Origin: Pseudomonadota bacterium
GTDB taxonomy: Bacteria; Pseudomonadota; Gammaproteobacteria; Acidiferrobacterales; Acidiferrobacteraceae
Assembly: GCA_021785035.1 (NCBI GenBank)
Contig: JAJYGP010000004.1
Coordinates: 1 to 55,930, forward strand
DNA: 55,930 nt
Reading direction: 5' to 3'
Numbering within the stretch: position 1 is the first letter of the stretch; the number at the start of each line of letters is the position of its first letter. The position numbers and the translations under genes were made by a program. The notes under the pieces are model-generated. The model made no database searches. It was not told the origin of the DNA and was given only the letters and a program-made list of their open reading frames with translations. Of the stretch, positions 5,001 through 20,704 are shown piece by piece.

Positions 5001-5096
5001 CGCGCCCCCTATGGCCACACTAAAAGCGGCCGCTAAAAACGCCATGTAAGAACGGAGACGGACGTTATGGGTAAGGGACACTAAGGGGGGGACCAT
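2073..5096 (-). CDS. Hybrid sensor histidine kinase (membrane domain, PAS, HisKA, HATPase, REC)
   Basis: The 1007-residue protein starts with about seven hydrophobic segments in the first 235 residues. A probable extracytoplasmic domain (about 240-440) and one more membrane helix near 450-470 follow. Then come a PAS domain with PAC motif (about 510-630), a HisKA domain with the phospho-accepting His648 in GGIAHDFNNI, and a HATPase with N-box Asn758 and the later GTGLGLA box. The C-terminal receiver (from about 885) has DDD, the acceptor Asp939 and Lys990. The kinase can thus pass phosphate to its own receiver. No separate response regulator or histidine phosphotransferase lies beside it. The signal is unknown. 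The ATG at 5096 is only weakly supported; an ATG 17 codons later is possible. Confidence 0.9.
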   Translation of the reverse strand: MVPPLVSLTHNVRLRSYMAFLAAAFSVAIGGAALVGWATLRPALVQWNRHLAPIPLNGALSLVLIGLGLMFLNRRAFRLALLVALPVVLYSAAATSYLVGTRFGITHAFFMVGMSLRHISARISPLTALMLMVGSFALAFAALTRSPAMGPAAGALLMALATAGLVGQLAPLWPIWRGLRSVSFPTSCVFFAIGAASLNYGWMEIRARRFGLAFVTATIFLTVTVVLAAALHTYEQDELTRTTQSVWQGVSDQIREQTHRPLAIARLAERWEVFGVPPRTEAEREARILIRGVPGLKAMIRVAPSSRVRWRVPFRGSRRVVGHFLDAAPARARAILRARTLNRVEMTPLIHLFRGGVGFVVVAPVRRAGRYLGAVAGIFNTSGFFSHLVVNLWQGYHVVVSLHHVPFFTRGGRGDNAALVTGRVRFLGQTLSLAVSPTRRIVNKIEVGLPGIVLMSGFLLALFSAAAVYAMQQAQRHAQSLDRMNAGLESLILARTASLREERERWRVTLMSIGDGVIVTDVAGRVLAMNTEAERLTGYRDEEAHGRALAHILPLYQDVNGAPIEAPVAAALGSGEIQRLKEAVVLKARDGRILQVSDSAAPIRDEDGAVTGAVIVFRDVTQRRVLEEQAMKAKSLEALGVLAGGIAHDFNNILTAIFGNITLAKIYAPAHEVLQGALSDAERASWRARELTLQLLTFAKGGAPVKKPGSIGETVKDLSGFFVKGSSVRCEFTLPDDLWTTEFDPDQMGQVIQNIVLNAKEAMSGAGVLKVRAANMTLKEGEVGHLPAGEYVRIAFEDTGRGIEKQHLERIFDPYFSLKPTGTGLGLAVTYSVVKRHQGLVVAESVVGQGTTLSLYLPRSGSRYAPLAAGRPRAFREIPATGRGRRILLMDDDPDVRATGAHLLRTLGYAVSEARTGEEAIGLFEQALSGARFDGVVLDLTVPGGMGGKECVRVLRERDPGVRVVVATGYCTDPIVAEFRAYGFAAVVQKPYRLDELSDTLAQVLAG

Positions 5097-5503
5097 CCCA
5101 AGCGATCTGCGACCGACGCTATGCTAACCCAGCCCCGCCCGTGCGAAAAGCGACCCACCTGCCCAGTCAGAGGGCCCCCTGGCCCGGGTAGCCCCGTGGT
5201 CAGGGCCAGGCCCCATAGAGGGGGCCCTCGACGCGCGGCCCCTTTTTAGGGCGGGCCATACTTTCCGTTCTCAACGGTGGAAGGGCACACCCTGACCGTG
5301 CCGCGTCAGGGCCGCGGGCCGGGCCTGCGCCCAGGGCTCGCGACATCATGCTCGGCCGATTACCGCACACCTTGCGATGGTGCTAGCCTTCATCTAGACG
5401 ACACCCCAAAAGGTGTGGCGCAAACACCGCTCTTACGAGAGGGATATCAGGAGACGTCGTCTTCTTTTCATGACACATTCACCCAAAAACGGAGGGACTT
5501 CCC
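5097..5503. other. Gene-free region with nested hairpins
   Basis: No gene is supported over about 400 bp. The region has GC-rich inverted repeats (5171-5228, listed separately) and the leader of the secreted repeat protein. No clear sigma-70 promoter was found. Confidence 0.5.
5171..5228. repeat. Nested inverted repeats
   Basis: AGGGCCCCCT (5171-5180) pairs with AGGGGGCCCT (5219-5228). Inside and partly overlapping it, CCTGGCCC (5178-5185) pairs with GGGCCAGG (5203-5210). The two stems share bases, so they could be alternative folds. No T-run follows on either strand. Confidence 0.45.
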
Positions 5504-5938
5504 ATGAAAGTCACTTATCTCCGAGTGGCCCTACAGGCCGCTCTGCTTGTCACCACCGGCCTCTTGATCAGCAATCGGGCGGGAGCCACCCTGCGCTCCG
5601 TTCACGCCGCAACCACCCCCGTCTCGGCCGGCCGGTCCGTGGCCTTGGGCACTGGTCCTGGGGTCGGGCCACATCTTTTAGCGCCACGCGTCGGCTTCGC
5701 CCCGCGCACCGAGACCACCGCGCGGCTTTCGCGCGTCGATGACCACCGAGATCGCGAGGACGAGGACGGCCATCGTTATCGAGGAAACATCGGCGATCGC
5801 GGACAGTACGGCAACTACGGTGATCGTGGCGATTACGGTGATCGTGGCGATTACGGAAACTTTGGGGACCGCGGTGTCGGTGGCGATCGCGGACATTACG
5901 GCGACCGCCGCGACGATGGCGAGGACCGCGACCACTAG
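5504..5938 (+). CDS. Secreted Asp/Gly/Arg/Tyr-repeat protein, unknown function
   Basis: The 144-residue product opens with a signal peptide (MKVTYLRVALQAALLVTTG, cleavage likely after ISNRAGA). The last 60 residues are low complexity: repeats of the type GDRGDYG, varied to GDRGQYGNYG and GDRGHYGDR. The repeats also show at DNA level around 5815-5860. A ribosome-binding site (GGAGGG) precedes the ATG. I do not recognise a family. The charged, Gly-rich, probably disordered tail suggests an envelope or secreted protein. A hairpin follows. Confidence 0.6.
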   Translation: MKVTYLRVALQAALLVTTGLLISNRAGATLRSVHAATTPVSAGRSVALGTGPGVGPHLLAPRVGFAPRTETTARLSRVDDHRDREDEDGHRYRGNIGDRGQYGNYGDRGDYGDRGDYGNFGDRGVGGDRGHYGDRRDDGEDRDH

Positions 5939-5972
5939 CCCCGCACCCGCCCTTCCAACGGCTTTCGGGCCC

Positions 5973-5991
5973 GCGGACAACACCTGTCCGC
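5973..5991 (+). terminator. Hairpin after the secreted repeat protein
   Basis: GCGGACA (5973-5979) pairs with TGTCCGC (5985-5991) across a 5-base loop, followed by CGCCCTCTT. It lies between convergent genes, so it may act as a weak terminator. Confidence 0.45.
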
Positions 5992-6024
5992 CGCCCTCTT
6001 GCCACTTGCGGGGGTGCGATCCCC

Positions 6025-6933
6025 TCAGATGACATCCCATGGTGGATGGGGGCCGAAGCGCTCGGCGACGAAATCGATGAAGCTCCGAAGTTTGGCCGGG
6101 ACATGCTGGCGGCTCGAATAGACGGCGTAGAGCGACAAGGGCGACAAGGGGTAATCTTGCAAAACTGCGGTCAAGCGCCCGGCCTTCAGATCCTCGCCCA
6201 CCAAAAAGGTCGGCTGGAGAATGATGCCAAGACCGCTTAACGCGGCCGCGCGCAGGACATCACCGTTATTGGCACGCAAACGGCCGGACACCGTCACCGC
6301 CCGCTCCTCGCCCGCCACACCCGGAAACCGCCAGCGGCCTTCGCTCGCCCAATAGCTATACCCTAGACAGTGATGCGTCGCGAGGTCTTCCGGGCATTGC
6401 GGGAAGCCGTGTTTCGCGAAATACGCAGGGGCCGCGCAGACCACGAGCCGCACCGGTGCGAGCCGGCGCGCGATCAAGCGTGATTCCACGAGCGTCCCGA
6501 TGCGCATCGCGACGTCATACCCCTCCTCGACGAGATCGACTAGACGGTCGTTCAGCGTAAGATCGACGCGCACCTCCGGAAAAGCCGCCAAATAATCGCC
6601 CAAGGCCGGCGCTAAGTGACGCACGCCGAACGAAAGCGCAGCGTTGACCCGCAAAGTCCCACGCGGCACAGCCGTGAGACGCATCGCCGCCTGATCGGCC
6701 TCGGCCACCCCCTCGAGCGCCGCCAGACAGTGCCCATAGTAACTGGCCCCGACCTCGGTCAGACTCAAGCGCCGGGTGGTACGGTGCAAGAGCCGCACCC
6801 CGAGGCGATCTTCGAGATACCGGACATATTTCGTCACCATAGTCCGCGAGAGCGAGAGCCGTTCGGCGGCGGCGGCAAAGCTTCCGGCCTCCACCACGGT
6901 AGCAAACACCCGCATGCTCTGCAGTGTATCCAT
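6025..6933 (-). CDS. LysR-family transcriptional regulator
   Basis: The 302-residue protein has the LysR layout. An N-terminal winged helix-turn-helix (residues 1-60: MDTLQSMRVFATVVEAGSF, then SLSRTMVTKYVRYLE) precedes a periplasmic-binding-protein-like effector domain (about 90-295). It resembles the large subgroup that includes AaeR and DmlR-like regulators. It is transcribed away from a DoxX gene and a LigB-type dioxygenase gene, a common arrangement in which the regulator controls the divergent genes. A T-N11-A palindrome lies 7 bp before its start. The effector is unknown. Confidence 0.93.
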   Translation of the reverse strand: MDTLQSMRVFATVVEAGSFAAAAERLSLSRTMVTKYVRYLEDRLGVRLLHRTTRRLSLTEVGASYYGHCLAALEGVAEADQAAMRLTAVPRGTLRVNAALSFGVRHLAPALGDYLAAFPEVRVDLTLNDRLVDLVEEGYDVAMRIGTLVESRLIARRLAPVRLVVCAAPAYFAKHGFPQCPEDLATHHCLGYSYWASEGRWRFPGVAGEERAVTVSGRLRANNGDVLRAAALSGLGIILQPTFLVGEDLKAGRLTAVLQDYPLSPLSLYAVYSSRQHVPAKLRSFIDFVAERFGPHPPWDVI

Positions 6934-6939
6934 TGCGCC

Positions 6940-6962
6940 ATTATTCCCTAAAAAGAAATAAT
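6940..6962. promoter_or_regulatory. Probable LysR operator (T-N11-A palindrome)
   Basis: ATTATT (6940-6945), 11 bases, then AATAAT (6957-6962) forms the symmetric T-N11-A site preferred by LysR proteins. It sits between the regulator start and the divergent doxX gene, so it probably mediates autoregulation and control of the neighbours. Confidence 0.65.
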
Positions 6963-7131
6963 GTATGTCTGAATAGTGGGTTTATCAACTCTTTACGGCT
7001 TGTTACTGTTCCTTCGTGCCAAAAACCGCTGACGACGACCGGCCCGACCCATCCCCGCGGATCGAAGGGCCGCGCAGCCGCAAACGGACCTATCCATTCA
7101 CGGTCATTTGAGAGAAAAGGAGTGTCATTTT

Positions 7132-7563
7132 ATGATAAATAGGATGAATTCGCGCGACAGAGCCTCTTACGGGGCCCTAATCTTACGACTGAGTCTGGGC
7201 GCCATGTATATAGCGCACGGAGACTTAAAGCTTCTCGTCTTTACGCTCCCAGGCGCGGCCCATTACTTTAGTTCGCTCGGACTGCCCGGAGGCCTTGCCT
7301 ATGTGGTCACGGCGGCGGAGCTTATGGGTGGCGTGATGTTGATCACCGGGGTCTATGCACGCTTTGTAGCGCTCGCCCTGGTGCCCGACCTGTTGGGGGC
7401 CATTATCTGGGTCCATGCGCACAACGGCTGGCTCTTCACCAATCCGGGCGGCGGCTGGGAATATCCGGCGTTCTTGATCGCCGCCTCGCTGGCGCTCTTC
7501 ATCATGGGCGATAGCGCCTTCGCGCTCGCCCCCTGCCCACGGGGGCCCCAGGCGATCTCTTAA
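7132..7563 (+). CDS. DoxX family membrane protein
   Basis: The 143-residue protein has four predicted membrane helices and the DoxX pattern: an N-terminal RLSLGAMYIAHG, then VTAAELMGGVMLITGVYARF. Members are linked to redox or stress metabolism, often beside LysR genes; exact functions are mostly unproven. ATG at 7132 follows AAGGAG with good spacing; an upstream in-frame TTG at 7108 is less likely. A strong terminator follows, so it may be transcribed largely separately from the dioxygenase gene. Confidence 0.9.
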   Translation: MINRMNSRDRASYGALILRLSLGAMYIAHGDLKLLVFTLPGAAHYFSSLGLPGGLAYVVTAAELMGGVMLITGVYARFVALALVPDLLGAIIWVHAHNGWLFTNPGGGWEYPAFLIAASLALFIMGDSAFALAPCPRGPQAIS

Positions 7564-7581
7564 GGGATCGGCGACACTACC

Positions 7582-7607
7582 CCCCGAGACCGCGGTCTCG
7601 GGGTTTT
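7582..7607 (+). terminator. Intrinsic terminator after doxX
   Basis: An 11-bp perfect stem, CCCCGAGACCG at 7582-7592 with CGGTCTCGGGG at 7593-7603, is followed by TTTT and CTTT. It is a classical Rho-independent terminator 19 bp after the doxX stop. Confidence 0.85.
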
Positions 7608-7621
7608 CTTTGGGAGCAGAC

Positions 7622-8404
7622 ATGGCCACTTTACCCAGCCTCTTTATTTCGCACGGAGCGCCTTTGTTGGCCACCGAATCCCACCCCATCACGAAAGTCT
7701 GGCGCGATCTCGGCGCACGAATCGGCCGTCCGCAAGCGATCCTTGTCGTATCGGCCCACTGGGAGACCTCGGGGCTACGCCTCACAAGCGCAGCAGAGCC
7801 TGCGACCATTCATGACTTTTTTGGCTTTCCCGAGCCTCTCTACGCCCTTCGCTACCCGGCCTCCGGCGCGCCTGACTGGGCACAACGCCTCAGCGAACAC
7901 GTGGCTCCCCATGGCTTTGCCATCGAGCTCGACTCCCTACGAGGCTGGGATCATGGGGTCTGGGTCCCGCTTTTGCACCTCTACCCGGCGGCCGATATTC
8001 CGGTCCTTGCGCTCTCGCTCCCCCGGGGCGCAAAACCAGAATGGTTATTTGCCTTGGGTCAGGCGCTGCGCACCGAGGGCCTCCTCATTATCGGATCGGG
8101 CGGGGCCACCCATAACCTACGGGCCCTGGGCGCAAGCGGCCCCGATGGCGGGCCACCGCCCTGGGCCCGCGCCTTCCAGGAGTGGCTCCACGAGGCCCTC
8201 GTCAATCACCGGCTCTCGGACCTCTGGAACTATCGCCACAAGGCCCCTTATGCCACCCAAAACCACCCCAGCGAGGAGCATCTTTTGCCACTCTTCGTGG
8301 CCCTGGGGGCCGCGGGCGAAGACGGGCAGGCCCATCGGGAGTGCGCGGGTTTTCTGTATGGCTCGCTGGCCATGGATAGCTATAGCTTCGACGCGTCAAG
8401 CTAA
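7622..8404 (+). CDS. LigB/DODA-type extradiol dioxygenase family protein
   Basis: The 260-residue protein matches the class III extradiol ring-cleavage dioxygenases of the DODA/YgiD type. Metal-ligand motifs seen are ISHGAP near the N-terminus, VVSAHWET, WDHGVWVPL and GSGGATHNL. Family members use a divalent metal to open catechol-type rings such as DOPA; the bacterial substrate is usually unknown. The ATG at 7622 follows GGGAGCAG; an in-frame TTG four codons earlier is less likely. It is probably under the divergent LysR regulator. A strong hairpin follows the gene. Confidence 0.9.
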   Translation: MATLPSLFISHGAPLLATESHPITKVWRDLGARIGRPQAILVVSAHWETSGLRLTSAAEPATIHDFFGFPEPLYALRYPASGAPDWAQRLSEHVAPHGFAIELDSLRGWDHGVWVPLLHLYPAADIPVLALSLPRGAKPEWLFALGQALRTEGLLIIGSGGATHNLRALGASGPDGGPPPWARAFQEWLHEALVNHRLSDLWNYRHKAPYATQNHPSEEHLLPLFVALGAAGEDGQAHRECAGFLYGSLAMDSYSFDASS

Positions 8405-8473
8405 CGCCTCCCGAGGGCCATAAGCGCGCGACAAAGGACTCACAACGACCTCTGTCCTTTAAGCGTCCCGCCT

Positions 8474-8516
8474 GCCCCCGGTCTGGGCCGCGTCGGGGGC
8501 CCGGACCGGGGGCTTT
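8474..8516 (+). terminator. Terminator after the dioxygenase gene
   Basis: A 16-bp stem (8474-8489 with 8498-8513, one G-U pair) closes an 8-base loop and is followed by TTTCCCC. It marks the end of the dioxygenase transcript and the left limit of the Wadjet block. Confidence 0.65.
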
Positions 8517-8700
8517 CCCCGCAGGACCGATACCAAAACTGCCGCGTCTCGACCGCCCCGAGCGCCTGGCCTACAGGGCACAGGCGCCATAGACCCGAGC
8601 GGATTGTGATAATCATGCGGTGCACCAAGCCTAGGCGCGTCCCCGCGGTCGGCTTTTGCGGCTACGGGGTCTTTGGAGGTACTCTTCCGGGGTCGGCCTC

Positions 8701-8737
8701 CCTCTGGCCGCCCCGATACTATCCGGGCGGCCAGAGG
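8701..8737. repeat. 13-bp inverted repeat upstream of jetA
   Basis: CCTCTGGCCGCCC (8701-8713) and GGGCGGCCAGAGG (8725-8737) are perfect inverted copies with an 11-base spacer, ending 55 bp before the jetA start. No T-run follows, so an operator or leader structure is at least as likely as a terminator. Confidence 0.55.
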
Positions 8738-8792
8738 GGCGTCATTCCCAACACCGATTCCAACCCCAGAGTGCGGCCCGGTCATCCCGTCT

Positions 8793-10247
8793 ATGAGTCT
8801 CGATTACACGACCCTCGACCTCCTGCGCCGCAACCATCCCGCGTGGCGCCTCCTGTGCTCGGACCACGCACCGCTGATTGCGAGCTTTTTGCAGCGGGTC
8901 TTTATCACCCCCAATAGACGCGTCATACCCCAAGCCGATCTCGTGGAGGCTCTGGAGGATGAACTCTTTGGCCTACGCGAACGCCTGGGTCCCGAGAGCT
9001 TCCCAAGGCCCGCGCGCGACTACTTGGACGACTGGGCGGCGATCGATCGAGCGTGGCTACGCAAGTTCTACGCTCCAGGGTCCGATGAACCCCAGTTCGA
9101 TTTGACGCCGGCGACCGAAAAGGCCGTTGCTTGGCTCGAGACCCTGACTGCACGCAGCTTCGTCGGCACCGAATCGCGCCTCCTCACGCTCTTTACCTTG
9201 TTGCGGCAAATGAGCGAGGGCAGCGAAACCGATCCGCACGTGCGACTTGCAGAACTCCGTAAACGCCGTGACGAGATCGATCGGGACATAGCGCGCATCG
9301 AGAGCGGCGACATACCGCTCCTCGACACTACGGCACTCAAAGATCGATTTCAGCAGTTCACCCAACTCGCGCGCGAATTGTTGTCCGATTTTCGCGAGGT
9401 CGAGCACAACTTCCGGGCCCTCGATCGGCGCGTTCGCGAACGCATCGCCCTCTGGGAAGGCTCTAAGGGGGCACTTCTCGAGGACATCATGGGCGAGCGC
9501 GACGCGATCAATGACTCGGACCAGGGCCGCAGCTTTCGCGCCTTTTGGGACTTCCTGATGTCGAGCGCGCGCCAAGACGAGTTGTCGACGCTGTTGGGCC
9601 GCATCTTAGCGCTCACCCCGATCACCGAGCTCAAACCCGATGCGCGCGTAGTCCGCGTCCACTACGATTGGCTGGAGGCCGGCGAACACACACAACGCAC
9701 GGTGGCCCAACTCTCGCTCCAGTTGCGGCGCTTTCTAGACGATCGGGCCTGGCTCGAGAACCGGCGCATCATGGACATCCTGCGGGGCCTAAAAAGCCAG
9801 GCCCTGGGGCTACGCGGTGCGCCGCCGTCGGGCAACATCATAAGCCTCTCGGAGACCGGAGCGACCATCGAGTTGCCGATGGAGCGACCGCTCTACACGG
9901 CACCGGTCAAACCCGTGATTGCCACCGTTGCGCTTTCGTCCGGGGACGCCGACATCGACGCCGGCGCCCTTTATTCCCAAGTCATCGTCGATCGCGCCGA
10001 GCTGACGCGCTACATACGCCGCGCCCTCCAGGACCGCTCCCAGATTAGCTTGCGGGATCTCTGTGCTCTCCATCCTTTGCGCCACGGGCTCGCGGAACTG
10101 ATAGTCTACCTCCAAATCGCGAGCGACGACCCCCACGCGGTCATCGACGAAAGCGCCTCCGAAATGATCGCTTGGGATATCGTAGGAGCCGAGAACGAAG
10201 GACGAAAAGCCCGCGTGCCACGCATCCTCTTTGTGAGACCGACATGA
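8793..10247 (+). CDS. jetA: Wadjet anti-plasmid system protein JetA (DUF3375)
   Basis: The 484-residue protein matches JetA of type I Wadjet (DUF3375) in size, in its start (MSLDYTTLDLLRRNHPAWRLL split by no gap) and in operon position. JetA is the kleisin-like subunit, comparable to MukF, that bridges the SMC heads of JetC. Visible features are an N-terminal winged-helix-like region, a charged helical middle (about 180-270) and a C-terminal domain. The ATG at 8793 is chosen because upstream sequence contains an inverted repeat and family similarity starts here. Its stop overlaps the jetB start as ATGA. Together the four proteins recognise and cut closed circular plasmids. Confidence 0.93.
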   Translation: MSLDYTTLDLLRRNHPAWRLLCSDHAPLIASFLQRVFITPNRRVIPQADLVEALEDELFGLRERLGPESFPRPARDYLDDWAAIDRAWLRKFYAPGSDEPQFDLTPATEKAVAWLETLTARSFVGTESRLLTLFTLLRQMSEGSETDPHVRLAELRKRRDEIDRDIARIESGDIPLLDTTALKDRFQQFTQLARELLSDFREVEHNFRALDRRVRERIALWEGSKGALLEDIMGERDAINDSDQGRSFRAFWDFLMSSARQDELSTLLGRILALTPITELKPDARVVRVHYDWLEAGEHTQRTVAQLSLQLRRFLDDRAWLENRRIMDILRGLKSQALGLRGAPPSGNIISLSETGATIELPMERPLYTAPVKPVIATVALSSGDADIDAGALYSQVIVDRAELTRYIRRALQDRSQISLRDLCALHPLRHGLAELIVYLQIASDDPHAVIDESASEMIAWDIVGAENEGRKARVPRILFVRPT

Positions 10248-10867
10248 CCGACGAGATCCTGGCCGACGCGGCCCCGTCCCTATCGAATCTAGTCATCCCT
10301 CTTCTGAAGGGGGTGATCTACCAGGAAGCCGATGGAACCTTATGGGCCCAGCTCCTGTCCCTCCAGGCCCGGGTGCGAGATTATGTGGCCGTGATCGGAC
10401 TTGAGTTGATATTAGACGAGGCTGAAGGGTACGCGTTCTTGCGGTCGCGGCCGCAAACCGAAGACGCAGCCCTGCCCCGTCTTGTCGCGCGCCGGCCGCT
10501 CTCTTATCCGGTGAGCCTGCTCTTGGCGCTGTTGCGCGAGAAGCTTGCCGAATTCGATGCGAGCGGCGGTGATACACGCCTCGTTCTTACCCGCGACGAG
10601 ATTGCCGAGATCGTACGCGTGTTTCTGCCGGACCACAGCAACGAGGCACGCTTGGCAGACCAGCTTGAGACCCATCTGAACAAGATCGCGGATATGGGCT
10701 TTCTGCGGCGATTGAAGACGAGCGCCGGCGGGCACGACACACCGACGTTCGAGGTCCGGCGTATCCTGAAGGCATTCGTGGATGCCCAATGGCTCGCCGA
10801 TCTGAGCGCTAGGCTCGCCGCCCAAGGCGCCCCGGCTCCCGGGGACAGAGAGGAAGACGATGAGTAA
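10244..10867 (+). CDS. jetB: Wadjet anti-plasmid system protein JetB (DUF4194)
   Basis: The 207-residue protein corresponds to JetB (DUF4194), the MukE-like winged-helix subunit that binds the JetA kleisin. It includes the stretch [20 protein letters not shown] typical of the family. The start ATG overlaps the jetA stop (ATGA) and its end overlaps the jetC start by 8 bp, indicating translational coupling and fixed stoichiometry. The frame is open from 10172, but that part lies inside jetA. Confidence 0.92.
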
Positions 10868-13800
10868 AGGTTCGGACAAACCCGAATCCCTGAGCCTAGA
10901 TTTTGCGAGCAACAACGCGCTTTCGGGGTTTCGTCTGCAGCGGCTTGAGGTCTACAACTGGGGGACCTTCGATGGGCAGGTCTGGACCCTCGATCCCCAG
11001 GGCCAGAACGCCCTCCTGACGGGTGACATCGGGTCCGGCAAATCGACACTGGTCGATGCCGTAACGACTCTGCTCGTGCCCGCCCAACGCATCACCTACA
11101 ACAAGGCCGCCGGCGCCGATAGCAAGGAGCGCTCGCTCCGCTCCTACGTCCTCGGGCACTACAAGTCGGAACGCAACGAGATCAGCGGATCGGCCAAGCC
11201 CATCGCGCTGCGCGATCACAATAGCTATTCGGTCATACTCGGGGTCTTTTATAACGCCGGCTACGACCAGACCGTGAGCTTAGCGCAGGTGTTTTGGATG
11301 AAAGATCAACAAGGGCAACCGGCGCGCTTTTTTGCAGCGACCGACCGCGCTTTAGCGATCGCGACCGATTTCGCGAACTTCGGCACCGACATCAGCGGTC
11401 TGCGCAAAAAGCTGCGCGCCCAGGGGGTGTCGCTCTTCGACAGCTTCCCACCCTACGGCGCCTGGTTTCAGAGGCACTTTGGCATCGATGCGCAGGCGCT
11501 GGAGCTCTTCCATCAGACCGTCTCCATGAAGTCGGTCGGCAACCTCACGGACTTCGTGCGCAACCACATGCTAGAACCAGGCGACGTGGAGACGCGCATA
11601 AGCGCCTTGATCGCCCACTTCGATGACCTAAGCCGCGCCCATGAGGCGGTCTTAAAGGCCAAGCGCCAAGTCGAATTATTGACCCCCCTGGTGGCCGACT
11701 GGGAACAGCACACCCAATTGTCCGTAAGGGCTACGAGCTTGCGCGGGGCCCGCCAAGCGCTCAAACCCTATTTTGCGCGCGTAAAGCTCGTCTTAATCGA
11801 GAAGCGTCTCGCGGATTTGGCCGCGGAGTGGGACAAACGCGACAAACAAGTGGCGCGGGCCTTGGAGGAGCGCTTGAAATGGAGCGCAAGCGAGACCGAT
11901 CTTAGGGCGCATATCGCCGCAAACGGCGGTGATCGCCTGGAACGTCTGACGGCCGAGATCCACAAAAAAGAGGAAGAGCGCGGGAGTCGCCAAAAAAAGG
12001 CCGCTCGCTATGGCGATCTGTGCCGCGCGGTGGCCGAGACCCCGGCTACGAACGAAGAGACCTTTGATGCGCAAAAGGCCCGGCTCGCGGCACTCCTCAA
12101 GGCCAGTCGCAGCGAGGAGGCAGACCTCCAAAACGCGCTCACCGAAAATGCCGTGGCCTTGCGTCAAGGAAAAGAAAAACACGATGGCCTCATGGCCGAA
12201 ATCCAAAGTTTACAGGCCCGACGCAGCAATATCCCCTCCCACCATATCGCTTTACGCCGGGCCTTGGCCCATGGCCTGAATCTTGTCGACGAGGACATGC
12301 CGTTTGCGGGCGAACTTCTCCAGGTGCGGACTACCGAACGCGATTGGGAAGGGGCCGCGGAACGGCTTTTGCACAACTTTGGCCTGGCGCTTCTCGTTCC
12401 CGATCAGCACTACGCCGCGGTCTCAGCCTGGGTCGACAAGACCAATCTCCGCGGGCGCCTGGTCTATTTCCGGGTGCGGGCCCAAGTGGGCCAGGCCCGC
12501 GCCGAACTCCACCGCGACTCCTTGGCACGCAAGCTCGAGATCAAACCCGATTCGCCCTTCTATGACTGGCTTGAGCGGGAACTCGCCCAACGTTTCGACT
12601 ACGCCTGCTGCGCGACCCAGAAGCAGTTCCATCGCGAGGTGCGAGCTGTAACCCGCGCCGGCCAAACAAAGGCCCCAGGAGACCGTCATGAAAAAGATGA
12701 CCGCCACGCGCTCGACGATCGCAGCCGCTACATTCTCGGCTGGACCAATGCCGCGAAGATCGCGGCCCTCGAGGATAGCGCCGCCGCGCTTGCAAAAAGT
12801 CTCGCCGAGCGCGGCGCCGTACTCGGCGGCATCACCCAGCAGCAAGGACTCCTCAAGGAACGTCTGACGGCGCTCTCGCAGTTCAGGGAGTACCAGGATT
12901 TCCCGGAGCTGGATTGGGCGGCACTGGCCACCGAGATCGCCGAATTGACTGAGGAACGACGGGCGCTGGAATCGGCCTCGGACACCTTGGCCGAACTCAC
13001 GGGACAATTGCGGCTGGTCAGCGCCAAACTCGCAGGGAGCGAGAAATCCGCCACGGATGCCCGAGATCTGCGCGCAAAATGCGAGCAAAAACAAGCGGAC
13101 ATCGAAGCCTTGCGCGCCCAGACGGAAGCCCTGCTTGATGAGTCGACGCTTGCCGTGCACGGGCCGCTCTTCCCGCGGCTCGACGCCGAACGCCAAGAGG
13201 CGCCCCATGCCCCACCCCTGACACTTGAGTCCTGCGATGCCCGCGAACGGGAGATGCGCGATTGGTTGCAAGATCGCTTGGAGTCGGACGAACGCAAGCT
13301 GAGGACCTTGAGGGACAAGGTCATCCAGGCGATGAGCGCCTACAAGGAGGCCTTTAAACTCGAGACCGCCGAGGTCGACGCAAGTGTCGACGCCGGCTCC
13401 GAATACCAGAAGATGCTCCATGACCTAGAGGCCAACGGCCTTCCCCGCTTCGAGGCACGCTTCAAGGAATTGTTGAACGAGAACACCATACGCGAAGTCG
13501 CGAACTTCCAATCGCAATTGGCCCGCGAGCGGGAAACGATCAAGGAACGGATCACGCGGGTCAATGCCTCACTGACCCAGATCGACTACAACCCTGGGCG
13601 CTACATCACGCTCGAGGCCCAAGCGGCCGCCGATGCCGATATCCGCGATTTTCAAGGTGAACTGCGGGCCTGTACCGAGGGGGCTTTGACCGGGTCGGAC
13701 GACGCCCAGTACTCGGAGGCGAAGTTCCTGCAGGTGCGCCGCATTATAGAACGCTTTCGCGGGCGCGAGGGTCAATCGGAACTCGATCGCCGCTGGACGA

Positions 13801-14243
13801 CCAAGGTCACAGACGTGCGCAATTGGTTCACGTTCGCCGCAAGCGAGAGGTGGCGCGAGGATCAGAGCGAGCATGAGCACTACTCGGACTCGGGGGGCAA
13901 GTCCGGCGGCCAAAAGGAAAAACTCGCCTACACGGTGCTTGCAGCGAGCCTCGCCTATCAGTTCGGCCTGGAGGCCGGCGCGATCCGCTCTCGCTCGTTT
14001 CGCTTCGTGGTCATAGACGAGGCCTTCGGACGCGGCTCCGACGAATCCGCGCAGTACGGCCTGCGCCTCTTTGGCGAACTGAATCTCCAGCTTTTGATCG
14101 TGACTCCGCTGCAAAAGATCCACGTCATTGAGCCGTTCGTGTCGTGCGTAGGCTTTGTGCACAACGACGAGGGCCGCTCATCGAAGCTGCGCAACCTGTC
14201 CATAGAGGAGTACCGCGCCGAGAAGGCCCGGATAGCGAGATGA
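10860..14243 (+). CDS. jetC: Wadjet anti-plasmid system SMC-like ATPase JetC
   Basis: The 1127-residue protein is the SMC/MukB-like motor. Walker A is GDIGSGKST (residues 55-63, Lys61). The ABC signature SGGQ is at about 1015-1018 and Walker B FVVIDEA has Asp1053-Glu1054, so the ATPase looks intact. Between them lie two long coiled-coil arms (about 270-450 and 640-900) around a hinge-like domain near 460-600. Published work on type I Wadjet shows that JetABC extrudes DNA loops until a small circle is used up, after which JetD cuts. Here it sits third in the operon and overlaps both neighbours. All catalytic motifs are present, so nothing suggests inactivation. Confidence 0.95.
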
Positions 14244-15409
14244 GCTGGACTAGGCCCGCCGACCTGCGCACCCAGCTGGAACGCTTGTGGGCGCGCGGCG
14301 AGATATTATCGAGCCTGGCGTCGGGTAGCTCACTGTTCCCGCGCCGCTTGAGCTTGAGGGGCCCGAGTTCATCAGAAATGGTGGATCAGTTCGACGAGGT
14401 CCGCGCTTGGACGGCTGAGCTTGGGGCCTTAGCCCACTACCGCCTCGAGCGGCGCGTCATCCGTCATCGAGTACTGGGGGCCAATTCTCTACCCAACGAG
14501 GTCTGGGTCTCGTCTCTCGAGGATGCGATAGCGATCCTCGGTAAAGCAGGTGAGGTGAAACGCTTTAGACGCTTAATCGATATCACCTTAGCCAGCGCCC
14601 CCGCGCTTTTGGGATGGCTTAAAGAAAAGCCTTTGCGGGCCCTCGAATTCGCGGCCGAGTGGGATCGCCTTCTTGCCATCGTTACATGGCTTAGCGCCCA
14701 CCCGCGCCCCGGTATTTATCTGCGGCAAATCGACATCCCCGGATTAGACAGCAAGTTTATCGAGGCGCACCGCGCAGTACTCGCAGAACTTCTCGATCGC
14801 GCGCTACCGAAGGAGGCGTGCGACCCCGCGGCGTGCGGCATCAACGCCTTCGCCCAGCGCTACGGGTTTCGCGACAAGCCGGTGCGCGTCCGCTTTCGAG
14901 TCTTGGACCCCAATCTTGCGGCCTCGTTTGTCGGACAAGACGTGGCCCTGGACGCGGGGAGTTTCGCGCGTCTTGAACTCAATATCTCCCGGGTCTTTAT
15001 CACTGAAAATGAGATCAACTTTCTGGCCTTTCCCGAGCGCCGGGGGAGCTTAGTGATTTTCGGGGCCGGATACGGCTTTACCATGCTGCGGGAGGCCCGC
15101 TGGCTCGAGCGTTGCCGCCTCTCTTATTGGGGTGACATCGACACCCACGGATTTGCCATACTCGACCAACTTCGCCAAGACTGGGCCCATGTCGAATCGT
15201 TCTTGATGGATCGCGCGACCTTGCTCGCGCACGAATCTCAATGGGGGTTCGAGGACCATCCCACTATACGCGAGCTATCGCGACTTGGGCCCGAGGAACG
15301 GCTGCTCTTCGATGATTTGCGCGACAACCGGATACGCCCAAACCTGCGTCTTGAGCAAGAGCGCATCGCTTTTGGGTGGGTAGAAGAGGCGCTTTCCCAG
15401 CTCGACTAG
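14240..15409 (+). CDS. jetD: Wadjet anti-plasmid system Toprim nuclease JetD
   Basis: The 389-residue protein is JetD (DUF3322/DUF2220), the nuclease of type I Wadjet. An N-terminal arm domain (about 1-190) is followed by a Toprim domain. Its metal-binding residues are visible: Glu256 in FITENEINF and Asp299/Asp301 in [10 protein letters not shown]. The ATG overlaps the jetC stop as ATGA; the frame is open from 14144 but inside jetC. The gene ends the operon and is followed by a terminator hairpin. Confidence 0.94.
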
Positions 15410-15441
15410 GCTGAACTTATTCCTGGGTCGTAACGCCTTCC

Positions 15442-15475
15442 CCCCTGAACCCCAGTGATTTCCGGGGTTCAGGGG
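15442..15475 (+). terminator. Terminator of the jetABCD operon
   Basis: A 12-bp perfect stem, CCCCTGAACCCC (15442-15453) with GGGGTTCAGGGG (15464-15475), has a 10-base loop and lies 32 bp after the jetD stop. No real T-run follows. The 13 bases CCCCTGAACCCCA recur at 18539-18551 in the rpmG terminator. Confidence 0.65.
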
Positions 15476-15715
15476 AGTTATGTGTGGTCACTCAATCATG
15501 GTATTCGGCAGTGACGATAACCCCCGTTCTTACGCTAGGTTCGGTCGCCCCTCATCGTACGGCGGCATGGCGGTTATCGGGACGACCGGCTCGATTCTTT
15601 CCTATCTTGCCGCAGCGATTTCCAACGTACCCACTTTGGATTGCACCATCCCCAAACAGATTTGTAGGCGCGGGGTCGTGGTGTCATATTTAATATATAA
15701 CTCTCGGAGGTGCCT
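15476..15715. other. Leader region of the toxin-antitoxin pair
   Basis: No gene is supported. A short open frame at 15484-15693 has no recognisable features. The last 55 bp turn AT-rich and carry a plausible promoter. Confidence 0.45.
15662..15698 (+). promoter_or_regulatory. Possible promoter/operator of mazEF-like genes
   Basis: TTGTAG (15662-15667), 17 bp, CATATT (15685-15690) gives a sigma-70-like promoter. The -10 box overlaps an AT-rich near-palindrome at 15686-15698, where a MazE-type antitoxin could bind for autorepression. An unusual drop in GC marks the spot. Confidence 0.4.
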
Positions 15716-15973
15716 ATGCACACCACAAATCTACGCAAGGTCGGCGGCTCTATCATGCTCGCTGTCTCCCCACCGCTGCTCGATGTTCTGCAGCTGTCGG
15801 CCGGGGCCACGGTCGGCCTCGTCGTCGATAACGGACGACTTGTTGTCGAACCGAAGGTGCGGCCACGCTACACGATGGCTGAGCTTCTGGCTGCATCGGA
15901 CTATTCGCCACCCCAGCCGCCTGAGGAACGCGAATGGGTTGATGCTTCCGCCATAGGCCGCGAGCTTCTGTGA
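15716..15973 (+). CDS. AbrB/MazE-type antitoxin
   Basis: The 85-residue protein starts with a SpoVT-AbrB-type DNA-binding fold (MHTTNLRKVGGSIMLAVSPP), followed by an acidic, disordered tail that would wrap the toxin. ATG at 15716 has a strong CGGAGG site; GTG two codons earlier overlaps that site. Its stop overlaps the toxin start as GTGA. The pair lies between the Wadjet operon and a broken transposase gene, a typical place for such modules. Confidence 0.9.
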   Translation: MHTTNLRKVGGSIMLAVSPPLLDVLQLSAGATVGLVVDNGRLVVEPKVRPRYTMAELLAASDYSPPQPPEEREWVDASAIGRELL

Positions 15974-16296
15974 GGCGCGGCGAGGTCTATATGATCGATC
16001 TGGAGCCGACGCACGGCCGCGAACAACGCGGATACCGTCCGGTCGTTGTCGTCTCACCGGATGAGTTCAACCTGGCAACCGGCCTACCCGTGATCCTGCC
16101 AATCACGAATGGTGGTGATTTTGCCCGCCGTATTGGCTTTGCCGTGCCTCTTGCCGGGACCAAGACAATCGGCGTTGTCCGCTGCGATGAGGCCCGCGTG
16201 CTCGATCTCAGCGCCCGCAATGGGCGCAAGGTGGAAAGCCTGCCTGTGGCCGTCATGGATGAGATTTTAGCCAGGGTCGCCACACTCTTTGAGTGA
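15970..16296 (+). CDS. MazF/PemK family endoribonuclease toxin
   Basis: The 108-residue protein matches the MazF/PemK fold. It opens MRRGEVYMIDLEPTHGREQ, has RGYRPVVVVSPDEFN, and a second strand region ITNGGDFARRIGFAV. Family toxins cut mRNA at short motifs and are neutralised by the upstream antitoxin. GTG start overlapping the antitoxin stop ensures coupling. Intact length and motifs suggest an active toxin. Confidence 0.92.
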   Translation: MRRGEVYMIDLEPTHGREQRGYRPVVVVSPDEFNLATGLPVILPITNGGDFARRIGFAVPLAGTKTIGVVRCDEARVLDLSARNGRKVESLPVAVMDEILARVATLFE

Positions 16297-16623
16297 ATCG
16301 GCTTTGGTGCGTAAGCCGACGAATGAACGCCCGAAGTGTCTGCCAAAAAAGAGGCCCGCCGTCATGCACGATTCAGTCCTGGCGAGATCACCCTAACCCT
16401 CTCGAATCCGCACACCGCGGAGGCTACGGCATCGCCCGCCTCGTGAGAGGGAAGCCACACCCGCTGCCCCTTGTGTCACAGGCGTTGTCGCCTCGCCATA
16501 AATCCAGATTTCCCATTAGCCCCTCATTCCCAATGGAAGCCATGAGGGTAAGTGGTTAGTTCATGAGTGTTCAGGGGGTGATTGACCAACAGCGCGGCCG
16601 CACTTTTTCTGTACGGGGGATCT
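16297..16623. other. Gene-free stretch between toxin and transposase remnant
   Basis: About 330 bp with no supported gene. Short open frames give Ser/Pro/Arg-rich translations without family features. It may include the left end of the decayed insertion sequence, but no terminal repeat could be matched. Confidence 0.4.
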
Positions 16624-17437
16624 ATGGGCTTTGAACTCCGATTGACGGATAAAGAAATCACCGCCTGGGGTGTTATGGGCCTTATGAAACGGATGCTCGA
16701 TCACCTCCATTTTGATGAGGCGTTGCAGATAAGCGGTCTCCCTCAACCCGGCAGCAATCGCGGCACTCGTCCCAGGCAATTGATCACCCCACTCATGCTC
16801 TCTGGCGGGTAGTGGCGCCAATCGCTTCGAACACGGCGAAGTGACCCGTGCAGAAAAAGCTCTCTCATGTGATCGCTCTGCGTTTAAACCCACCCCTCCA
16901 ACGGGCCCTGGTCGAATTCTCTGGCTGGTGGATACTAGATGATGGCATCGATCCCGTCATTATCGCCTAGTTGGTCACGGCCGCGCCGCGTGGTCGGCAT
17001 CCGGCAACCTATCGAAAGACGGGCACAGGCCAAGGGCAAGACCCTCTCGCTTTTTGCCGATGATCCGCAGTGGGGTGAATATCGATTCGCTGCCCTGGTG
17101 ACCGATCTCACGGTGCCGGCCGTGGAGATCTGGCGTCTCTATCGCGGGCGCGCCGACTGTGAGAACCGCATTAAAGAATTGCAGTACGACTTCGCTGCTG
17201 ACAGCTTTTGTTGAAAGAATTTCTGGGCCACCGAGGCTTGTCTTAACACAGCACAATCTGATGAGCCTCTTCCGCCGGGCGGTGCTGCGGGCACGTGTCC
17301 TAGAAAGTGGCGGCCAAGATGTCCAACACACCTTGAAGACCCTCCGTTACAAGCTCTTTGCCAAGGCCGGTTACACCACCACCGAAGGCCGCAAAAACAT
17401 CCTGAAACTCGCGATCGACATGCGCCAAAGAGAGTGA
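16624..17437 (+). pseudogene. Decayed IS1380-like DDE transposase
   Basis: Fragments of one transposase lie in different frames. The N-terminus from ATG 16624 reads MGFELRLTDKEITAWG and LPQPGSNRG, ending in a shifted stop at 16812. Its continuation in another frame reads GANRFEHGEVTR near 16814-16855. A C-terminal piece (about 16990-17214) has RQPIERRAQAKGKTL and WRLYRGRADCENRIKELQ. The last piece (about 17220-17437), in yet another frame, has HNLMSLFRRAVL and LKTLRYKLFAKAGY. A full copy has about 430-450 codons, so the middle is deleted. Flanking inverted repeats were not found. The family call rests on remembered motifs. Confidence 0.85.
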
Positions 17438-18068
17438 ATGGAAGGTCTTTGGGATTGCTCGCAGACCTTTTCTTTGCCGGTCCGTTTCACGCCCACCTTT
17501 TCCTCGGCGTAGGGGTCTAATGGAAAATCTGGGGTAGAACTCATACTTTTGCCGAACGCGATCGAGGGCTTCGCTGCGCGCCCTCGGCTGAGTGGTCCAC
17601 GGCACTGATCTCAGACCATGCGTACCGTGACGGTGCAGGCGTGTGTCAGGGTCTCGCTCACCACCCCAAAGCAAGGGTCGCAGGTTTTGAGGGGTCCCAG
17701 AACGCGACTCTAGCAGAGGCGGGGCATGTAGATGTCAGTGCGATCTAGGACGTTTAAAGAATTTTCGCCGACGAACGCTGCCGAATCGCGACAATCGACG
17801 GAGATCACACAGATCTGGCGTGGGGATCCGCAGACACGAAAGCCTCCTTACGGCAGCGGAAATAACCGGTACCGAAAGCCGCCAGTCTATGAGTCCCGTC
17901 ACTGTATCAAGGATACAAGTCCGGCCGTTATCCGCTCACGGTGCGATTCCGGGGCCTGGAGCCCGAGTCGCACCGGACAAGGTGGCAATAGCGTGCCATC
18001 GGATCATGGTCCTAAGGGCGGCCTCGTGGGCCGGCCCGCCGGGTGCCCCGATAGGGAGGAGGAAGGGA
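17438..18068. other. Gene-free stretch upstream of rpmB
   Basis: About 630 bp without a convincing gene. A 142-codon frame at 17732-18160 overlaps rpmB and has no recognisable features. One strong hairpin is present at 17939-17975. The usual neighbour of rpmB, radC, is absent here. Confidence 0.45.
17939..17975. repeat. Hairpin in gene-free region
   Basis: CGGTGCGATTC (17939-17949) pairs with GAGTCGCACCG (17965-17975), 11 bp with one G-U pair and a 15-base loop. There is no T-run. It does not fit a tRNA. It could be a remnant of the mobile region or part of an RNA. Confidence 0.4.
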
Positions 18069-18107
18069 TTGGCACCGGCCCGGGTTTGTGGCAGAATCGC
18101 GCGATTC
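18069..18107 (+). promoter_or_regulatory. Promoter of rpmB-rpmG with overlapping palindrome
   Basis: TTGGCA (18069-18074), 17 bp, CAGAAT (18092-18097) is a good sigma-70 promoter, with transcription expected near 18104. The 14-bp perfect palindrome GAATCGCGCGATTC (18094-18107) overlaps the -10 box and start point. Confidence 0.65.
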
Positions 18108-18120
18108 ATGCGGGGGTTTT

Positions 18121-18357
18121 ATGTCTAAAGTATGCCAGGTCAGCGGCAAGCGGCCTATAAGTGGTAATAACGTATCGCACGCGAACAACAAGACGCGGCG
18201 ACGGTTTTTGCCAAATCTGCACTACCGGCGCCTCTGGGTCGAAAGCGAGAAGCGGTGGGTGCGTCTGCGTTTGTCGCATCACGGCTTACGGACGATCGAC
18301 AAGAAGGGTATCGACGTTGTGCTCGCGGAAATGCGGGCGCGCGGTGAGGCGGTTTAG
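18121..18357 (+). CDS. rpmB: 50S ribosomal protein L28
   Basis: The 78-residue protein is a full-length bL28: [20 protein letters not shown] and a C-terminal [12 protein letters not shown]. It has only one Cys, so it is the zinc-free form. The ATG at 18121 gives the canonical N-terminus; an upstream in-frame start at 18088 is not used in the family. It is followed 9 bp later by rpmG, its usual partner. Confidence 0.97.
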
Positions 18358-18366
18358 GAGAGCGCT

Positions 18367-18522
18367 ATGCGTGATAAGATAAAGCTGGTATCGAGCGCCG
18401 ACACGGGTCATTTTTACACGACGACGAAGAATAAGCGTACGATGACCGAGAAGTTCGAGATCAAGAAATTCGATCCGATTGCGCGTAAGCACGTGGCCTA
18501 CCGCGAGGCAAAGATTAAATAG
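18367..18522 (+). CDS. rpmG: 50S ribosomal protein L33
   Basis: The 51-residue product [20 protein letters not shown] continues through [17 protein letters not shown] to AKIK and a TAG stop. It is a typical bL33 of proteobacteria, and its lack of zinc-binding Cys pairs puts it in the zinc-free class, like the neighbouring L28. It lies 9 bp after rpmB and is co-transcribed. A terminator follows immediately. Confidence 0.97.
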
Positions 18523-18528
18523 TTAAAC

Positions 18529-18554
18529 CCATGGGGCGCCCCTGAACCCCATGG
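18529..18554 (+). terminator. Terminator of rpmB-rpmG
   Basis: CCATGGGG (18529-18536) pairs with CCCCATGG (18547-18554) around a 10-base loop, followed by ATGTTGTTC. It lies 7 bp after the rpmG stop. Confidence 0.65.
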
Positions 18555-18716
18555 ATGTTGTTCCCCACCCCTCAAGGTTTCTTTCAGGCCTCGCCGCGCG
18601 TTTGTGAGCCCAGGCGACCTGTGGTCTTGTCGCTGTGCCTGTCGCTCGGTATATTAGTCCCAATCCTCGGTTGAGGCCCATTGCTGTCGATGGCAGGCTA
18701 TCCTGCCAGGGTTGCC

Positions 18717-19343
18717 ATGTACCCTCTTAGCCAACAAGTTTTGCGTACGGATGTTGCCGGTATGCCGCTTGAGTGGATCGATTTCCGCGAAGCGGTCCGT
18801 ATTTGTCATCTAGGCCAGGTCGCTTATACCTGCGGCGTTCTTTTGTACCGAGTTCATGGTGGCTATAACGCCGTCACGGGGCGGCGCAGCGTCATTGACG
18901 TGAATTCCATCCTGGCGACTTACGGGGAGAACGGACAGCTGTTGCGGCAACGTGATGAGTACGTGCCGCCGCTTAGTAACCCCGCCTTGTTTGCGCGTGA
19001 CGCTCGGCTATGCCTTTACTGCGGCGAACGATTTTCAGTGCGCGATTTGTCTCGCGACCATGTGACCCCCCTTAGCCGCGGCGGCGGGGATGTGTGGCGC
19101 AATGTCGTGACCGCCTGTAAGCGCTGCAACAACCACAAGGCGGGCCGCACGCCAGAAGAGGCGGGGATGGCGCTCTTGGCCGTGCCCTTCGTGCCCACTC
19201 ACGCCGAATATATCTTTTTGCAGGGGCGTCGGGTTCTTGCCGACCAAATGGCGTTTCTGCGCGCCCATTTTCCGCGTACCAGCCCGCTGCACAAGCGCTT
19301 GGATCGCGTGGTCCATCTTTCTTCGCAGGATTGGGCGGGCTAG
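18717..19343 (+). CDS. HNH endonuclease
   Basis: The 208-residue protein contains a zinc-supported HNH nuclease domain: CLYCGERF, RDHVTPLSRGG and CKRCNNHKAGRTPEEA (about residues 100-150). The first half matches a common proteobacterial HNH family (VLRTDVAGMPLEWIDFREAV). These are often stand-alone chromosomal genes of unknown role, possibly DNA repair or defence. ATG at 18717 has CAGGG just upstream; ATG at 18690 is a possible longer start. The gene ends in a bidirectional terminator shared with the desaturase gene. Confidence 0.88.
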   Translation: MYPLSQQVLRTDVAGMPLEWIDFREAVRICHLGQVAYTCGVLLYRVHGGYNAVTGRRSVIDVNSILATYGENGQLLRQRDEYVPPLSNPALFARDARLCLYCGERFSVRDLSRDHVTPLSRGGGDVWRNVVTACKRCNNHKAGRTPEEAGMALLAVPFVPTHAEYIFLQGRRVLADQMAFLRAHFPRTSPLHKRLDRVVHLSSQDWAG

Positions 19344-19380
19344 AGAGTCCGGGGTCGGCGCAAGGGAACCACCCAAAGGA

Positions 19381-19413
19381 AAGCCCAGGGGCCTTAAGGC
19401 CCCTGGGCTTTTT
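19381..19413. terminator. Bidirectional intrinsic terminator
   Basis: A 30-bp perfect palindrome (19381-19410; arms AAGCCCAGGGGCC, centre TTAA) is followed by TTT on the plus strand. It lies between the convergent HNH and desaturase genes and can stop both. Confidence 0.85.
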
Positions 19414-19437
19414 ACTGAAGGGCAGTTACGACTGAGC

Positions 19438-20628
19438 TCAGATCTTCACCGAGTTGGCCGTATAGGTGCGGATATTGGCCGAAAACTCCCGGAGGGCTTG
19501 AATCCCTGTGGCTTCCGCCTGATGGCACCACTCCTGAAGGGCTACGAGTAGCTGCTCCTGGGTTACGGCCGACCGACGCCAGACGTCCTGGAGACGTTCT
19601 TTCATCAGATAGACCGTATGCAAGGTCGTGTTATTGGCCAGTATTTCTTGGAGGTGTTGGTGATCAGCCTCTCCGATGAGCGTCTTTTCCCGCACCATGA
19701 GTCGCTTCGCCCGCTTCAAGAGAAGCGCAGCCTGACTGTCGGCAACCGCGACCTTACGGACCTCTTCGGCATGGACGCGGTGCAAGACTTCACGCGCAAA
19801 CCGGGCCATGATCTGAAAGCGATGGTGTACCACGGCTTTGACCGTCTCGAGATCGCAGGTGTCTTTGGCGGCGGTGTAGGCCGGGATCGGGGCCACCTTT
19901 TTGACGCTCGCAAGACCAAAGGTCTCGAGCATCCGGATGTAGGTCCAACCGATGTCTAGCTCCCATGGCTTACAGGAGAATTTGGCCGAGCTGGCATAGG
20001 TGTGGTGATTGTTATGCAGTTCTTCGCCGCCGATCAGGATCCCGATGGGAAGGATGTTGGTGGCGGCGTCCGGGCATTCGAAGTTCCGGTAGCCAAAGTA
20101 ATGGCCGACCCCGTTGATGATCCCCGCAGCGAAAAACGGAATCCAGATCATCTGGATCGCCCATATGCTCAGACCCAGCGCACCAAAGCACAGGAGGTCG
20201 ATCACCAACATGATCCCGACCCCGGTCGCGCTATAGCGCGTATAGAGGTGGCGTTCGATCCAGTCGTCTGGCGTGTTATGCCCGAATTTAGACAGTGTCT
20301 CGGCGTTTTTGCTTTCCTTGCGGTAGAGTTCCGCCCCTTCCCATAGGACCTTCTTCAGGCCCAGCACTTGTGGGCTATGGGGGTCTTCTTCGGTCTCGCA
20401 GCGCGCATGGTGCTTGCGGTGGATGGCGACCCATTCCTTCGTCACCATGCCCGTGGTGAGCCAGAGCCAGAAGCGAAAAAAGTGGGCGACCGCCGGATGC
20501 AGGTCTAGGCCCCTATGGGTCTGGTGGCGATGCAGGTATATGGTCACCGAGACAATGGTGATGTGGGTGAAGGCGAGCGCTACCAGAACATAGCCCCACC
20601 AAGGCATAACAACGAGACCTTGCAACAT
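19438..20628 (-). CDS. Acyl-CoA (delta-9 type) fatty acid desaturase
   Basis: The 396-residue integral membrane protein has the three histidine boxes of membrane-bound desaturases: HRHQTH (33-38), HRKHH (70-74) and HNNHH (near 195). These hold the di-iron centre that puts a double bond into acyl chains, controlling membrane fluidity. Hydrophobic pairs flank the boxes. A C-terminal extension of about 150 residues, helical and charged, is longer than minimal members. ATG at 20628 follows GAGGGA; an in-frame ATG 10 codons earlier lacks a site. Confidence 0.93.
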   Translation of the reverse strand: MLQGLVVMPWWGYVLVALAFTHITIVSVTIYLHRHQTHRGLDLHPAVAHFFRFWLWLTTGMVTKEWVAIHRKHHARCETEEDPHSPQVLGLKKVLWEGAELYRKESKNAETLSKFGHNTPDDWIERHLYTRYSATGVGIMLVIDLLCFGALGLSIWAIQMIWIPFFAAGIINGVGHYFGYRNFECPDAATNILPIGILIGGEELHNNHHTYASSAKFSCKPWELDIGWTYIRMLETFGLASVKKVAPIPAYTAAKDTCDLETVKAVVHHRFQIMARFAREVLHRVHAEEVRKVAVADSQAALLLKRAKRLMVREKTLIGEADHQHLQEILANNTTLHTVYLMKERLQDVWRRSAVTQEQLLVALQEWCHQAEATGIQALREFSANIRTYTANSVKI

Positions 20629-20704
20629 GATCTTTCCCTCTACTGAAAACGCGCCCATTGTAGGATAACGCGATACCTGAATGAAGCTCCGCAGAGGTCT
20701 TTGC

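Follow-up and report, generated by a model that had tools for sequence, protein, structure and literature searches.

An intact type I Wadjet operon in a genus of the Acidiferrobacteraceae and its relation to characterized JetABCD systems

Type I Wadjet systems are encoded by four genes, jetABCD (equivalent to mksFEBG), and the closest described examples are the solved JetABCD systems of Escherichia coli GF4-3 and Pseudomonas aeruginosa PA14, plus the MksBEFG system of Corynebacterium glutamicum (PMC10123090). Cross-linking has placed the nuclease JetD in contact with an IFDR motif at the N terminus of JetB, according to the accessible part of a review (PMC10586767), and the accessible part of the C. 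glutamicum report describes binding of MksG, the JetD equivalent, to the kleisin MksF (JetA), with no binding to MksE or MksB seen (PMC10123090). Here, we compare these systems with a four-gene operon in a window of 55,930 nucleotides, the entire contig JAJYGP010000004.1 (C101) of a 2.28-Mb draft genome from the family Acidiferrobacteraceae (GCA_021785035.1; 107 contigs, 94.5% complete, one JetC). The operon is a real, intact and conserved type I Wadjet, a kind of system that is already known, and its sequence indicates that it is very probably a functional chromosomal one.

The genes lie on the + strand in the type I Wadjet order jetA-jetB-jetC-jetD (8793-15409), with successive overlaps of 4, 8 and 4 bases (jetA/jetB, jetB/jetC and jetC/jetD); the gene order, coordinates, strand and 4-8 base overlaps given by an earlier sequence-only reading were all correct on re-reading. 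Start codons were set by gene overlap and profile fit, and the open frames of jetA, jetB and jetD can be extended further upstream. The same reading had proposed a complete type I Wadjet, and profile searches bore this out, with Pfam matches that exceed the curated cut-offs for each protein: JetA to DUF3375 (1.3e-154), JetB to DUF4194 (4.1e-47) and MksE (2.6e-19), JetC to AAA_29 (6.3e-26) and SbcC_Walker_B (5.9e-24), and JetD to DUF3322 (2.1e-56) and JetD_C (PF09983, 3.6e-55). The top PADLOC models were JetA1 (4.1e-221, profile positions 1-479 of 480), JetB1 (4.1e-89, near full-length), JetC1 (E=0, 1613 bits, profile positions 4-1119 of 1123) and JetD1 (2.1e-148, near full-length), and E-values of this size exclude chance as the source of the four-protein identification. 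The four proteins had no NCBIfam matches at E 0.001, and their single match in PHROGs was a weak one (phrog_77 to JetC, 7e-04).

With the E. coli GF4-3 and PA14 systems the operon shares the four genes, their A-B-C-D order, the profiles and the Toprim residues, but it is remote from them in sequence, the best match of its JetB to a PDB chain reaching only 2e-05. This JetB has 207 amino acids (aa), compared with 249-250 residues in the PDB JetB chains, and it is without the N-terminal extension bearing an IFDR-like motif that is found in close relatives of the E. coli and PA14 systems. JetD matched the PDB chains MksG 8b7f (4.4e-18), JetD 8q72 (2.3e-10) and JetD 7til (3.4e-10); 8q72 and 7til, which we take to represent the E. 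coli GF4-3 and P. aeruginosa PA14 systems, have Leu where the source JetD has Tyr at position 278. The solved chain closest to the source JetD is C. glutamicum MksG (69 bits versus 43.6 and 43), and Y258 of MksG is the Tyr that the two proteins have in common.

Plasmid records provide further comparisons. One, L034 (NZ_CP090424.1), listed as a Stenotrophomonas maltophilia plasmid, has a 306-aa JetD frame that agrees with the MksG chain 8b7f at 305 of 306 residues, the exception being the first (a GTG start). Its JetB has just 23 residues ahead of the core and lacks an IFDR-like motif, and its JetC is ~31% identical to the source over the best piece. Other operon frames, jetC among them, are broken; jetC was excluded from the tree described below, and the record could contain Corynebacterium DNA or carry a wrong label. 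Among the collected plasmids, JetC identity to the source peaked at 62.5%, in pTs485 of Candidatus Thiodictyon syntrophicum, which has the four-gene order and short JetB of the source but carries them on a 485-kb record labelled both plasmid and linear, whereas the source operon is chromosomal. In another record (L031, NZ_CP035707.1, 59.8 kb, marked linear), a Wadjet whose jetA is split by the annotation into two overlapping genes adjoins parA/parB, making this a small replicon that carries a plasmid-cutting system.

The catalytic motifs are intact in both enzymes, as the sequence-only reading had stated for Walker A, Walker B, the ABC signature and the Toprim acidic residues on grounds now extended by pattern matching and by alignment to solved homologues. 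JetC contains Walker A (GDIGSGKS), the ABC signature and Walker B (FVVIDEAF) by pattern match, and its Walker A also aligns with solved JetC chains; across 34 rows of the source branch, Walker A was matched in 32 (two fragments) and the signature and Walker B in 33 each. Counting columns in phmmer alignments to PDB chains pairs JetD E256 with both MksG E236 and 8q72 position 248 (an entry named JetD(E248A)), D299 with D279, E372/E374 with E349/E351 and Y278 with Y258. The MksG partners of E256, D299, E372 and E374 are catalytic or proposed catalytic residues, and in the accessible part of the MksG report cleavage was drastically impaired by E236A and D279A and drastically reduced by Y258A (PMC10123090). 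In 43 of 48 rows, those left after exclusion of L005, L048, L050, L030 and L054 for a wrong open frame, E256, N257, G298, D299 and D301 are identical throughout, and E372-Q373-E374 is identical in all but L043, in which the C-terminal end is absent (42/43). Tyr 278 is conserved in 28/28 rows of the source branch versus 4/15 other rows.

Table 1. Features of the operon and its surroundings, in window coordinates
Feature	Description	Position	Strand	Evidence or remark
jetA (MksF)	kleisin, DUF3375, 484 aa	8793..10247	+	Pfam, PADLOC, PDB JetA 8dk1 1.1e-24
jetB (MksE)	KITE subunit of 207 aa (DUF4194); N terminus short, IFDR-like motif absent	10244..10867	+	Pfam, PADLOC, PDB JetB 9qxt 2e-05
jetC (MksB)	SMC-like ATPase, 1127 aa	10860..14243	+	Pfam, PADLOC, PDB JetC 8as8 9.7e-62, motifs
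jetD (MksG)	Toprim nuclease, 389 aa; E256, D299, D301, E372, E374, Y278	14240..15409	+	Pfam, PADLOC, PDB, residues
near-palindrome	19-base arms, 95% complementary	8700..8738	.	ends 54 bases before jetA
MazE/MazF-like pair		15710..16296		directly after operon
HNH protein	HNH endonuclease-like	18681..19343	+	weak match to Septu PtuB models (best 3.5e-07)
desaturase-transposase frame	single open frame with a fatty-acid desaturase as its N-terminal half (20-222) and an ISL3-type transposase as its C-terminal half (276-401)	19438..20658	-	

By analogy with characterized homologues, from which loop extrusion, circle sensing and cleavage are taken, the operon most likely protects the cell from plasmids by reeling in and cutting small circular DNA. 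Following the mechanism given in the accessible part of the review (PMC10586767), JetC dimers, paired by the kleisin JetA with JetB, would load on DNA and extrude loops with ATP. On a small closed circle both motors would exhaust the DNA, a state that would activate the JetD nuclease to cut it, and linear DNA and very large circles, the chromosome included, would escape JetD. In the source system JetD would be held by JetA and not by a JetB hook, a step less certain than the others.

This last step derives from a difference between branches of type I Wadjet. In a quick tree of 49 JetC rows (rows <900 aa excluded; Shimodaira-Hasegawa-like approximate likelihood ratio test (SH-aLRT) support only; G386 and G345 on very long branches), the source JetC falls in a 32-row branch (SH-aLRT 100) that includes Nocardia and Streptomyces plasmid copies. 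JetB has 11-29 residues before the conserved core in all 32 members of this branch and 38-86 in 15 of the 17 others, the exceptions having 15 and 23. A broadened IFDR-like pattern was found in the JetB N terminus in 0/32 rows of the source branch and 5/17 outside it, all five within one 7-row branch, in which a P. aeruginosa plasmid copy groups with the closest relatives of the solved E. coli and PA14 chains; L063 alone has exact IFDR, and L064, which has no JetB, stands outside the 17. These counts cover relatives of the solved systems, not the N-terminal sequences of the solved JetBs. JetB starts followed a rule, namely the first ATG in a stretch beginning 60 bases ahead of the presumed jetA stop, or else another start; for several rows with the jetA frame missed or misplaced the open frame was read from its first ATG, and the values for L049 and L050 are whole open frames and thus upper bounds.

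The distribution of the motif suggests that the JetB IFDR hook is not a general feature of type I Wadjet. Because JetB lacks the IFDR-carrying extension and C. glutamicum MksG binds MksF, JetD probably docks on JetA in the source branch, by analogy with that pair. We tentatively propose, with doubt outweighing confidence, that type I Wadjet may comprise at least two nuclease-holding architectures: a P. aeruginosa/E. coli-like one with an IFDR-hook JetB, and a wide hookless branch with short JetB and Tyr-bearing JetD (the source operon, other members of the phylum, and the Nocardia and Streptomyces plasmid copies), in which JetA would recruit and gate JetD and the conserved Tyr would join in cutting. 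We found no description of this branch difference in a literature search on IFDR and JetB, which returned only the partly accessible review (PMC10586767) and had most subscription papers beyond its reach.

Substitution patterns bear on whether the operon is in use. Against the sister species G004, the ratio of nonsynonymous to synonymous substitution rates (dN/dS) was 0.112 for JetA, 0.025 for JetB, 0.147 for JetC and 0.179 for JetD; against the distant congeners G003, G001 and G007 it was 0.147-0.238, at high dS of 1.2-1.7 (11 comparisons; JetB of G003 left out), and JetD had the highest value of the four in every comparison set. By these ratios all four jet genes are under purifying selection, so the earlier judgement that the system looks active gains support. 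Recent inactivation outside the coding frames, which would leave an intact but silent or disused operon in this lineage, is very unlikely: a single draft assembly of 107 contigs, transposase remnants 1.5 kb downstream and the want of a promoter-like site in a simple scan are compatible with such a state, but the low dN/dS in the comparison with G004 and frames that are open throughout speak against it.

Several observations count against a working anti-plasmid system of the kind outlined above. The scan, for sigma-70-like promoters over 8300-16600, found 0 versus 1.4 expected by chance, a result that says little. The source JetC is 25-26% identical to the relatives nearest the solved systems (G183, G207, G313 and a Cupriavidus plasmid), and details may differ; the docking analogy rests on a JetC/MksB pair with ~31% identity across the best piece of the broken-frame record, and docking in C. 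glutamicum was, in the accessible part of the report, measured on proteins purified from that different organism (PMC10123090). Finally, three of the 14 genomes of the source genus (G009, G011 and G012) have no JetC or JetA match, two of them being 77% and 85% complete, and the operon is probably dispensable in view of these absences.

The same three genomes argue against a role mainly as a chromosome-organizing, MksBEF-like condensin with JetD as an accessory, which could be entertained since JetB also matches the Pfam family MksE (Condensin complex protein) and the subunits closely resemble those of MukBEF, according to the accessible part of the review (PMC10586767). We consider such a role extremely unlikely, given that JetD is full-length, has its catalytic residues and is under purifying selection. 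A MukBEF or MksBEF without nuclease would have no JetD/MksG gene, and jetD is present at 14240-15409; a condensin-only role was rejected on the ground that JetD is intact.

The functional type I Wadjet reading also draws on relatives in the genus. The sequence-only reading had considered a working copy in this lineage worth recording; the intact copy stands, and it is not a lone one, with JetC in 11/14 genus genomes, the source genome included. Within the family JetC was found in 11/18 genomes, with 0/4 in two other genera, and JetA is likewise in 11/14 genus genomes (in G005 only as a piece at a contig end) and in 9/10 of those with >=90% completeness and <=5% contamination. A phylum-wide draw (limit E 1e-20, at most two candidates scored per genome) gave JetC in 38/398 genomes, or 25/338 at the same completeness and contamination, and a Fisher test of the genus (9/10) against the draw (24/337) gave p = 2e-9, with the qualification that congeners are not independent.

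The source JetC branch is present in 9/14 genus genomes, the source plus eight others at 67-98% JetC identity. The copies of G013 and G006 belong to a different type I branch (JetC1/JetD1), with JetC ~30% identical to the source and PDLC00518 as best PADLOC JetC model, compared with PDLC00512 for the source. G010 has a second, fragmentary Wadjet copy of the source kind, represented by contig-end fragments (L027 and L069, on G010:C87 and G010:C78), in which the JetA piece again adjoins a related kinase. A swapped JetD in this copy, considered because an 89% JetC fragment lies beside a 59% JetD, was rejected; the disparity probably reflects the JetC head as the more conserved part.

Comparison with the sister species suggests exchange at the locus. 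The dS of the four jet genes against G004 (0.049-0.087) lies below that of every one of 18 other genes (0.180-0.452; MazE at 0.153 and MazF at 0.130 excluded), and on this basis the operon was probably exchanged recently between the source species and G004. In 250-base blocks, identity to G004 is 95-100% from ~8.7 to 15.5 kb and 90-94% beyond, with one block before jetA at 87%. Nevertheless, the nine genus copies of the source branch form one clade (SH-aLRT 100), and the operon lies within ~4.4 kb of the same kinase in five of these nine genomes (G000, G004, G001, G002 and G010), so it looks old at its site, with occasional exchange or loss. Among the other four, no kinase passed the limit used in G008, and G003, G005 and G007 have contigs that stop <1 kb from jetA or inside it. 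The low jet dS would also fit transient carriage of the locus as mobile cargo, as opposed to stable residence in the genome, as would the kinase-mdoG pairs of G009, G013 and G006, which have no Wadjet in the 6.7-9.9 kb examined on that side. We regard mobile cargo, which would be compatible with the proposed function, as unlikely in view of the single clade and the shared kinase.

The surroundings are those of a chromosome: mdoG-, hybrid-kinase-, purM-, purN-, proS- and fumC-like genes in the same window place the operon there, a plasmid location was rejected on the purM-, purN-, proS-, fumC- and pgsA-like genes (names assigned from Pfam families), and operon G+C content does not depart from its surroundings. 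The near-palindrome before jetA lies in a 141-base stretch that folds with z = -3.3 and is possibly a leader hairpin or operator. No function is claimed for it, because its core pattern occurs at one further site in the genome and its longer form in 0/75 loci, and it is only partly kept in G004, where the arms differ.

On the 3' side of the operon are a MazE/MazF-like pair, transposase remnants and an HNH protein (Table 1). The MazE/MazF genes also lie beside the operon in G004 and do so in 0/8 other genus genomes with Wadjet loci compared. Gene order relative to G004 breaks at 16466-20000, pieces of 2075-16466 matching contig C43 and 20000-55900 matching C44; the transposase remnants lie inside this break, which may be a rearrangement or an assembly join. 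The desaturase-transposase frame looks as if an insertion sequence had entered a desaturase gene.

These results document an anti-plasmid system that is intact and under selection, in a lineage whose sampled genomes mostly carry one. The branch comparison makes the mode of JetD recruitment among short-JetB systems a directly testable question. If the operon works, such bacteria would be hard to transform with small plasmids.

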